A stretch of DNA of 64,000 bases. Origin: an uncultured SAR86 cluster bacterium (GTDB lineage Bacteria; Pseudomonadota; Gammaproteobacteria; Magnimaribacterales; D2472). The position numbers were made by a program, and so were the translations under genes. The stretch spans positions 1-64,000 of the forward strand of contig CACEZB010000007.1 in assembly GCA_902563835.1 (NCBI GenBank), given 5' to 3'. Positions 34,939 to 46,325 of this stretch are shown here, piece after piece. Positions within the stretch are counted from its first letter, which is position 1. Every line of letters starts with the position of its first letter. Below the pieces are notes generated by a model, which was not told the origin of the DNA, ran no database searches, and saw only the letters and a list, made by a program, of their open reading frames with translations.

Positions 34939-35634
34939 ATGAGTTTAAAGATATTAATAATTGAAGATGAGCCCGATATTCGTAAGAATCTTGAGTATAA
35001 CTTAAGTCGCGAGGGTTACTCTGTGCTGACCGCTGCATCTATTGCAGAGGCTGAGCAGTTAATTTATTCAAATAATTTATCTTTAATACTTTTAGACTTA
35101 ATGTTGCCTGATGGTTCAGGGTTAGATTTATGTAAAAAAATGAAATCTGATCCTAATGTGCAAAATTTACCAATTATTATATTAACAGCCAAAGATGATG
35201 AGGTTGATAAAGTAGTAGGTTTTGAGCTTGGGGCAGATGACTATGTAACAAAGCCATTTAGCGTAAGAGAGCTTATTTTAAGAATAAAAGCTGTGTTAAA
35301 AAGAGGAGATAACAAGAAGGATATAGTTGAGATAGATAGACAATTTGGAGATTTAAAAATTGATATCGATTCTCATGAGGTATACGTAGATGGTGATTTA
35401 GTTAATTTAACCGCATTAGAATTTAAACTTCTTATTCAACTGGTCGATAGAAGGGGCAGAGTTCAATCTAGAGAACAATTATTGGCTGATGTTTGGGGTT
35501 ATAGTGCTGAAGTTACAACAAGAACTGTTGATACACATATAAAGAGATTAAGAGAAAAACTCGGGAGCATGGGAAAGTATGTTCAAACTATAAGAGGCGT
35601 AGGTTATAAGTTTTCACGATCTCCAGACCAATAA
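34939..35634 (+). CDS. phoB: Phosphate regulon response regulator PhoB
   Basis: A 231-residue OmpR/PhoB-class regulator. The receiver domain has acidic Asp10/Glu11-type pocket residues, phospho-acceptor Asp53 in LILLDLMLPDG, Thr83 and Lys105 in DDYVTKPFS. The winged-helix DNA-binding domain (about 130-228) includes LTALEFKLLIQLV and TTRTVDTHIKRLREKLG, characteristic of PhoB recognition helices. The kinase gene follows immediately (TAAATG). Assignment as PhoB rather than a paralogue is supported by 11-bp-spaced Pho-box sites just downstream and by phosphate genes nearby. An AATAAT hexamer precedes the ATG by 6 bp. Confidence 0.92.
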   Translation: MSLKILIIEDEPDIRKNLEYNLSREGYSVLTAASIAEAEQLIYSNNLSLILLDLMLPDGSGLDLCKKMKSDPNVQNLPIIILTAKDDEVDKVVGFELGADDYVTKPFSVRELILRIKAVLKRGDNKKDIVEIDRQFGDLKIDIDSHEVYVDGDLVNLTALEFKLLIQLVDRRGRVQSREQLLADVWGYSAEVTTRTVDTHIKRLREKLGSMGKYVQTIRGVGYKFSRSPDQ

Positions 35635-36717
35635 ATGATAAAAGAATTTATCAATATCCATAAAATTTTCACCCGATTAAAATCAAAAGTAAGTTTTACT
35701 TCAAAGCAAAGAGATCAATATGGTTATGTTTTAGATGATCTAGGAGACGGTATAGTCGTTATTGATGAAGATGGAAATATAACTTTTGAGAATGAACAAT
35801 TTTCTCAAATATTAAATCTTGAAAAGGTTTCAGGTAGAAATATTACCGAATTAGGTATCCATTCTTTAGACTATTTATTTAGAAGGGCAAAAAAAGAAAA
35901 AAGTGATGATATTGAGTTTGAAATTGAATTAAGTGATAAAACTACAAGATGGGTTCTTGGAACAATGAACCAATCTAAAAATACAAAAGAATATATTTTA
36001 GTACTTCATGATATAACTCAATTAAGAAGCTTTAGTTCCATGAGAAGAGATTTTATTTCAAACCTATCACATGAATTAAGAACCCCTGTTAGTGTTATAA
36101 GAGCAAATTCAGAAACATTAATCGATAGTGCGTTGGATGATAAAAAACAAGCAAAAGTATTTGCAAAGGCTATTCTTCATAATGCAGAGAGACTTACAGA
36201 TATGGTATCGTCACTACTAGATCTGTCTAGAATAGAATACGGGGAATTAAAGTTAAACTTCCAGGAAATAGACTTAAATAAATTTTTTGAAAATTTTATT
36301 GGCTCTATTTCTAATTTATCAAAGAAAAAAAATATAAATATATTATATAAACCAAATCATGAAGGTTTAATCAAAGGCGATCTTCAAGCAATAGAAAGAA
36401 TTATGAATAATTTGATTGATAATGCTATTAAATATTCGGATGAAGGATCCGATATTGAAATTTTTACAGAAAATGATGAAAAATATATAAAAGTTATGGT
36501 AGCTGATAGTGGCTCTGGTATATCAGAAGAGGATCAAGATCATATTTTTAGTAGATTTTATAGAACTGCATCGGCCAGAGCTACTGATAATCAAGGGAGT
36601 GGGCTAGGATTGGCTATTGTTAAACACCTTGTAAATAATTTAAACGGCGATGTTGGGATTGATTCTAAAGAGAAAACTGGTTCTATTTTCTGGTTTTCAC
36701 TCCCAAAAACCCAATAA
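35635..36717 (+). CDS. phoR: Phosphate regulon sensor kinase PhoR, without membrane segments
   Basis: A 360-residue histidine kinase. A PAS domain spans about residues 30-125 (GDGIVVIDEDGNITFENEQFSQIL). The DHp domain follows with the phospho-acceptor His147 in FISNLSHELRTP, then the catalytic domain with N box NLIDNAIKYS, G1 ADSGSGI and G2 GSGLGLAIVKH. The first 30 residues are polar and contain no hydrophobic helix, unlike the membrane-anchored PhoR of E. coli. phoB ends one base before the start, so no upstream membrane region can be recovered. It is presumably cytosolic or recruited by a partner such as PhoU. Confidence 0.9.
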   Translation: MIKEFINIHKIFTRLKSKVSFTSKQRDQYGYVLDDLGDGIVVIDEDGNITFENEQFSQILNLEKVSGRNITELGIHSLDYLFRRAKKEKSDDIEFEIELSDKTTRWVLGTMNQSKNTKEYILVLHDITQLRSFSSMRRDFISNLSHELRTPVSVIRANSETLIDSALDDKKQAKVFAKAILHNAERLTDMVSSLLDLSRIEYGELKLNFQEIDLNKFFENFIGSISNLSKKKNINILYKPNHEGLIKGDLQAIERIMNNLIDNAIKYSDEGSDIEIFTENDEKYIKVMVADSGSGISEEDQDHIFSRFYRTASARATDNQGSGLGLAIVKHLVNNLNGDVGIDSKEKTGSIFWFSLPKTQ

Positions 36718-36753
36718 ATAAGCACTTTACATATAATTAGTAATATATTAATA

Positions 36754-36798
36754 TGTCACACAAATGTCACATATATGTTACATATATGTAATACGGAG
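36754..36798 (+). promoter_or_regulatory. Array of four Pho-box half sites with 11-bp period
   Basis: TGTCA-type repeats start at 36754 (TGTCACACAAA), 36765 (TGTCACATATA), 36776 (TGTTACATATA) and 36787 (TGTAATACGGA), in exact 11-bp register. The first two match the E. coli Pho box (CTGTCAT-A/T4-CTGTCAT) at about 14 of 18 positions by eye. The array ends in GGAG, the ribosome site of the small peptide ORF. PhoB activation of that ORF, and possibly of the downstream gsp operon, is inferred. Confidence 0.75.
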
Positions 36799-36804
36799 CT
36801 AAAC

Positions 36805-36891
36805 ATGGTTAAAACAATTTGGAATAAAATTCACAGATTCATGAAATCCGGAAGGCTCAATAAAGTTATCAGAATTTCTGGAATCAGATAA
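36805..36891 (+). CDS. 28-residue highly basic peptide behind a Pho-box array
   Basis: ATG 36805 follows GGAG (36795-36798) at ideal distance and TAA is at 36889-36891. The peptide begins MVKTIWNKIHRFMK and ends in RISGIR. It has eight Lys/Arg, one His, no acidic residue and regularly spaced Ile/Trp/Phe/Met, compatible with a cationic amphipathic helix. There is no signal peptide. A terminator follows 17 bp later, so it can be a separate short transcript. No family is known to me. Roles such as binding an RNA, a phosphate-rich ligand, the membrane or a partner protein are all open. Confidence 0.6.
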   Translation: MVKTIWNKIHRFMKSGRLNKVIRISGIR

Positions 36892-36908
36892 AAGTGCTAC
36901 ATAATAGA

Positions 36909-36938
36909 AAATGAGCTAAAATTATTAGCTCATTTTTT
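36909..36938 (+). terminator. Perfect 11-bp hairpin terminator just before gspC
   Basis: AAATGAGCTAA (36909-36919) and TTAGCTCATTT (36925-36935) form an 11-bp stem with a 5-nt loop, followed by T's. The ATG of gspC at 36942 follows almost directly, so the hairpin lies where a leader should be. Partial read-through or attenuation is likely unless the CATAAT at 36900-36905 is a -10 starting inside the hairpin. Confidence 0.85.
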
Positions 36939-36941
36939 ATT

Positions 36942-37346
36942 ATGGACTATATAAAAACAAAGAAAATATTGATATCAGTTTTGGCGCTGATTACTTTCGC
37001 GCTTTTAATAACTTTTCTCATTTCTTTTTCAAATAAACCAGAAATAAAAGAAATTAATATTACTAATATGACTGATTTTGCATTCACCGCATCTAATACT
37101 TCTTTTAGTGAATCAGAAAATGACATTTCTAAAATTCCATCATTTGATTATGAATTAATCGGATATAGATCAGGTATAAATGACTCTTCGGTAATTTTAA
37201 AAAAAGGTAGTAAGGAATATGTAGTTTATAAAGGAGAAATGCTAGAAGGTGCATACGAGCTTATTAATGTTACACAAGATGAAGTGATTTTTAAAAATAA
37301 AGAAAAGTTATACAAGATTGAGAACCTAGTAGGTAAGCAATTATGA
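36942..37346 (+). CDS. gspC: Type II secretion protein GspC
   Basis: A 134-residue inner-membrane/periplasmic clamp protein of the type II secretion system. One transmembrane helix spans about residues 9-28 (ILISVLALITFALLITFLIS). The homology-region domain follows: DYELIGYRSGINDSSVILKKGSKEYVVYKGEMLEG...VIFKNKEKLYKIE, the GspC fold that contacts GspD. It is short compared with typical GspC (about 270), lacking a C-terminal PDZ or coiled-coil domain. The start lies 3 bp after a terminator T-tract with no Shine-Dalgarno. The 3' end overlaps gspD by 4 bp. Confidence 0.85.
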   Translation: MDYIKTKKILISVLALITFALLITFLISFSNKPEIKEINITNMTDFAFTASNTSFSESENDISKIPSFDYELIGYRSGINDSSVILKKGSKEYVVYKGEMLEGAYELINVTQDEVIFKNKEKLYKIENLVGKQL

Positions 37347-46303: not shown

Positions 46304-46325
46304 AGTCACATATCTGTAACACATC
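46304..46325 (+). promoter_or_regulatory. Pho-box-like site upstream of the phosphate transporter
   Basis: AGTCACATATC (46304) and TGTAACACATC (46315) are two Pho-type half sites in 11-bp register, followed by CTGTTAA. The site lies 43 bp upstream of the pit ATG. It is weaker than the array at 36754 but the same shape. Confidence 0.5.

Follow-up and report, generated by a model that had tools for sequence, protein, structure and literature searches.

The region between phoR and the type II secretion genes of an uncultured SAR86 bacterium contains a tandem array of Pho-box-like repeats, and the question that this locus raises is which gene the array serves. We analysed a stretch of 64,000 nucleotides around it (hereafter the window), for which the initial annotation had described a four-unit array and had named a tiny peptide and the secretion operon as the only genes it could regulate. 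The gene limits on which this was based are correct (36717 for the end of phoR, 36942 for the start of gspC), and the tiny peptide corresponds to the ORF at 36805–36891. As judged from the sequences compared here, the array is probably (with a probability of about 0.8) the PhoB-activated promoter of this ORF, a separate, small and monocistronic microprotein gene which is also carried by marine phages. The features of the locus are presented in Table 1.

Table 1. Features of the phoB–gspC region and of the second Pho-box-like site in the window
Feature	Position	Strand	Remarks
phoB	34939..35634	+	Best family TIGR02154 PhoB
phoR, 360 aa, without N-terminal membrane part	35635..36717	+	
Three good 11-bp Pho half-site units, TGTCACACAAA TGTCACATATA TGTTACATATA	36754..36786	+	Kept in group-A relatives and sister genera
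Alternative candidate -10, CATATAT (relatives: CATAAAT/CATACTT)	36781..36787	+	10 bp past unit 2
Weak fourth unit, TGTAATACGGA	36787..36797	+	May hold the -10 (TGTAAT) or overlie the transcription start
Shine-Dalgarno GGAG of the microprotein gene	36795..36798	+	Invariant in group A
Microprotein gene, 28 aa, MVKTIWNKIHRFMKSGRLNKVIRISGIR	36805..36891	+	Codon-position pattern, pN/pS
20-bp hairpin, U-rich 3' arm, terminator-like; foot overlaps the gspC ATG	36900..36944		-23.7 kcal/mol, z -9.7
gspC-like first gene of the type II secretion operon	36942..37346	+	Weak T2SSC match, E 0.035
Second Pho-box-like pair, 5' of the pit phosphate transporter gene	46304..46321	+	

The half sites at 36754 (TGTCACACAAA), 36765 (TGTCACATATA), 36776 (TGTTACATATA) and 36787 (TGTAATACGGA) are present as described, and their exact 11-bp register can be read directly; the units are TGTCAC, TGTCAC, TGTTAC and TGTAAT. 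Across the window, the array is the top TGTNAC match at period 11 for three as well as for four units. The four-unit score is 19/20 and the three-unit score 15/15, compared with maxima of 16 and 13, respectively, in 100 dinucleotide shuffles of the whole 64-kb window; scans of the window at periods of 9, 10, 12 and 13 gave nothing comparable. The pattern TGTNACANNNNTGTNACA has two exact occurrences in the 991-kb genome, both within the array, where the two exact TGTNACA-N4-TGTNACA matches overlap each other, and the reversed-pattern control has none in the same genome. Sites with one mismatch are the unit pair 3–4, the region upstream of pit (46304) and C2:16307, which was dismissed as a Pho site because it sits within a coding sequence. 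Among 34 genomes of the genus the pattern is found in 23 places, 15 of them ahead of the microprotein gene, and the reversed pattern in none. TGTNACA is its own reverse complement, and therefore the orientation of the array is unreadable from the core alone.

Concerning the number of units, units 1–3 of the proposed four are good, but the fourth is weak: the relatives have TGTAAT, TGAAGT, TGTCAA, TGTTTT or TGAAAT at this place, which keeps little beyond the TG. As the fourth unit may also be the -10, it is safer to speak of three units with a weak fourth one. It is possible that the array could take more than one PhoB dimer, yet the weakness of the fourth unit has to be considered. The promoter -10 is not fixed, because TGTAAT (unit 4) competes with CATATAT, which gives two offsets. 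The best mean TATAAT match across relatives falls at the fourth-unit offset. If the E. coli arrangement applies, PhoB~P on units 1–2 would put the TATAAT-like CATATAT 10 bp downstream; a 37-mer which we take to be the E. coli phoA promoter, and which is present in 4653 E. coli genomes, has the same 10-bp gap after its second half site.

The distribution of the array in SAR86 relatives indicates its partner. All nine genomes of group A have the order phoR, array, ORF, hairpin, gspC. Five genomes of the same genus (L004, L007, L008, L010 and L025) possess phoR followed directly by gspC, with neither the repeats nor the ORF, and gspD is the next gene, as read in L004. The comparison of the same junction in relatives thus ran against a role of the array for the secretion genes. 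Four of these five genomes (G014, G026, G001 and G012) contain the array and a diverged copy of the ORF elsewhere, with a strong terminator after the ORF; the displaced pair lies approximately 9–11 kb upstream of phoR in G026, G001 and G012, whereas G014 has it on a contig other than that of phoR. An unrelated lipoprotein gene comes next after the pair in L064 and L065. Because these four genomes carry both away from the junction, the array goes with the ORF and not with gspC. Matches to the family HMM are found in the genera g1, g12 and g16, all of the same family, and there are two weak ones in other families (G110 and G132). The array–ORF unit is again located between phoR and gspC in g12 and g16. 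Arrays of 11-bp repeats are present upstream in the HMM matches whose upstream region was read, with the exception of G130, which has a degraded microprotein copy and no array. The weak matches in G110 and G132 also have upstream arrays (TGTGACATTATTGTGACA in the former, several GTCA-type units in register in the latter), which gives independent support for these two matches being real. Many SAR86 genomes do not contain the microprotein, and in a phylum-wide sample of 398 genomes it was found only in the window genome.

Several further arrangements were seen in the course of this comparison. Four SAR86 genomes without the microprotein (G016, G013, G009 and G021; L038, L046, L047 and L049) have their exact Pho pair preceding a conserved secreted protein of 141–142 aa. 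Downstream of phoR, L014–L024 have a different neighbour, which encodes a glycine-rich lipoprotein; TGTAAC-type repeats spaced 11/10/11 lie between the two genes. In another genus (L026, 2600–2860) an array 3' of phoR lies ahead of a different small secreted protein. One contig labelled Candidatus Neomarinimicrobiota (L133, NZRW01000068.1) encodes a microprotein of 96% identity, together with the array, and is probably a mis-binned SAR86 contig. PhoR has 360 aa in the window, approximately 448 aa with two hydrophobic stretches in the group-A/B relatives, and 586 aa in other relatives; the N-terminal membrane region has either truly been lost from the window protein or is missing through an assembly error. 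Also, a porin gene comes after pit, and the secretion operon of the window sits between two Pho-box units.

The microprotein belongs to a family of basic proteins of 27–29 aa with the motif [WF]xxFHxxMK[SA]GR[LI]xKV; it has a charge of +8 and is weakly amphipathic. No family match was obtained for it in Pfam, NCBIfam or PDB, and the PF06568 (DUF1127) profile did not match it at E<=1 or at E<=10. Matches in PHROGs (phrog_2476, phrog_273, phrog_29527 and phrog_17966; E 0.05–0.18) were set aside as noise, being weak, inconsistent and spread over four unknown families. The AlphaFold model of a 53-aa phage form consists of helices only (pLDDT 74). In seven distinct sequences, the variable columns at codon positions 1/2/3 number 6/4/16, with a pN/pS of 0.19; this is what one would expect if the gene is translated and subject to purifying selection.

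Relatives of the microprotein are also encoded in viral sequences of IMG/VR, in 59 and then 224 stretches. The phage contexts examined are those of T4-like marine phages, with regA/gp62 (L103 and L108) or a major capsid gene with tail genes behind it (L104) as neighbours, and T4-like phage records match around regA. Some phage forms have a hydrophobic N-terminal helix ahead of the motif. Phage microprotein copies do include genes with an upstream Pho-type array: an exact TGTNAC-N5-TGTNAC pair lies upstream of 16 of the 51 non-redundant copies (0.02 in shuffles, 0–2 for other spacings). When viral loci holding the pair are considered, a set that is not fully de-duplicated, the pair is no more than 150 nt upstream of the ORF in 38 of 43, in a zone with 2.9% of the bases. 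The T4 late-promoter sequence TATAAATA is found in 13 of the 51 upstream regions (1.5 expected), and both it and the Pho pair in only one. Copies (L107, L108, L126, L163, L166–L168 and others) often start at or within the end of regA, a position which may result in co-transcription with that translational repressor. As many phage copies have a late promoter or a post-regA position and no Pho array, the microprotein is not always PhoB-controlled. A tblastn search of the microprotein against INPHARED gave no match, such short queries being insensitive, and no copy was detected by HMM in seven complete phage records whose regA regions are related (C48C1, Melnitz, Mosig, HTVC008M, P-SSM7, MbCM1 and S-PM2).

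The main alternative for the bacterial locus is that phosphate limitation activates the type II secretion operon through the array and that the small ORF is a leader. There is a precedent, since the Hxc type II secretion system of Pseudomonas aeruginosa is Pho-controlled; moreover, gspC starts 50 bp past the ORF on the same strand, and pit and a porin gene are found just 3' of the operon. The relatives argue against it, both those with the same gene order and no array and the four in which the array, the ORF and a terminator are found together at another place. Also, the hairpin at 36900–36944 intervenes between the microprotein ORF and gspC and overlaps the gspC start, and in the sister genus g16 the homologous hairpin ahead of gspC is a textbook terminator (GAGCTACACTATGTAGCTC then TTTTTT). 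One stem pair of the hairpin changes on both sides with pairing kept; because most stem pairs are invariant, the covariation support is thin. Three group-A loci (L005, L006 and L012) have the hairpin without a long U-run, so read-through into gspC is possible in them, which speaks for the leader arrangement. A -10-like TAAA(A/C)T 5' of gspC is kept in genomes with and without the array, and this independence suggests that the gspC operon has its own promoter. Control of the secretion operon by the array, as the initial annotation had allowed, is thus unlikely.

It is equally necessary to ask whether the repeats are PhoB sites and whether the transcript acts through its protein. OmpR-family regulators use tandem repeats, the TGTNACA core is self-complementary, and the window PhoB scores 242.8 bits, below the curated cut-off of TIGR02154 (296.2); the cognate phoB and phoR of the genome have PhoB and PnpS/PhoR as their best families, both under the curated cut-offs. 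Binding of another OmpR-family regulator, or a structural repeat, is nevertheless a rather improbable explanation. In a PhoB-type Pho box, a direct repeat of 11 nt occurs at least twice, and seven positions of each repeat are well conserved (PMC4415409), which is what the array contains, and its period of 11 bp and TGTCA core match those of known Pho boxes (PMC4415409). Both phoB and phoR adjoin the array, and the next best site in the window precedes the pit phosphate transporter, the one other phosphate gene of the genome at which the Pho motif was found. The rarity of the array in the genome, its conservation in three SAR86 genera and the adjacent recognisable PhoB strongly support a functional Pho array, and we infer PhoB binding, induction and termination at the array–ORF unit. 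That the product is a small RNA with an incidental ORF would suit a short unit with a terminator-like hairpin, but it is very improbable in view of the codon-position pattern (6/4/16) and pN/pS of 0.19, and of the protein motif retained in phages with unrelated surrounding DNA; the Rfam scan of 36600–37100 gave chance matches far under the gathering scores.

Under the preferred reading, in which the array is the promoter of the microprotein gene, PhoB~P would occupy units 1–3 when phosphate is scarce. A transcript of approximately 110–150 nt would begin just upstream of the GGAG at 36795, encode the 28-aa basic microprotein and mostly end at the hairpin before gspC. The microprotein would then be a PhoB-controlled effector, which some marine phages appear to make via host PhoB. 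Its role can be proposed only tentatively: it may be induced by PhoB and regulate the phosphate response, possibly via PhoR, and T4-like marine phages may have captured it with its Pho arrays or re-equipped it with them. As to the target, our guess, and a doubtful one, would be that it binds either PhoR or a membrane protein of the phosphate uptake system and so feeds back on the Pho response. Binding to PhoR has been described for small DUF1127 proteins (PMC12501420); a point against such a mechanism here is that the window PhoR is without the membrane part proposed for it. If true, host and virus deploy the same tiny protein once phosphate runs out.

The kinds of element found at this locus are known, namely Pho arrays (PMC4415409), PhoB-controlled small proteins (PMC8600398) and phage genes under host PhoB (PMC10976474); the microprotein family, its sharing between host and phage, and its association with the array were not found in the limited literature searched. 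For SAR86, abundant ocean bacteria, the analysis revises which gene a phosphate switch is likely to target, and it describes a conserved protein of 27–29 aa which family databases have overlooked. As many T4-like marine phages have the same protein, often behind a switch of the same kind, the use of host phosphate control by viruses beyond pstS or phoA becomes testable here.

The SAR86 array resembles the E. coli-type Pho box (phoA, pstS; PhoB) in its 11-bp direct repeats with a TGTCA core and in the TATAAT-like hexamer 10 bp past the second half site, as in the presumed phoA 37-mer. It differs in its half site (aTGTCAC vs CTGTCAT) and in its three or four units, of which unit 3 overlaps the candidate -10. 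Phosphate regulation adjoins a type II secretion system as in Hxc of P. aeruginosa, but the SAR86 array is part of a separate unit before the operon. Similarly to DUF1127/YjiS proteins (PMC12501420), the microprotein is very short, basic, phosphate-linked and encoded beside phoR, whereas it has no PF06568 match, possesses another motif, is array-controlled and occurs in phages. YtfK, a PhoB-induced small protein acting on SpoT (PMC8600398), is comparable in being small, having two pho boxes and being induced by phosphate starvation; the SAR86 microprotein differs in having no family match. Host PhoB binds cyanophage promoters (PMC10976474), and the cyanophage genes under its control, e.g. pstS and S-PM2d genes, likewise represent an exploitation of host phosphate control by T4-like marine phages. 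In contrast to them, the microprotein is neither a transporter nor a phosphatase, its arrays are of the TGTNAC type instead of the cyanobacterial box, and its gene is found also in SAR86.
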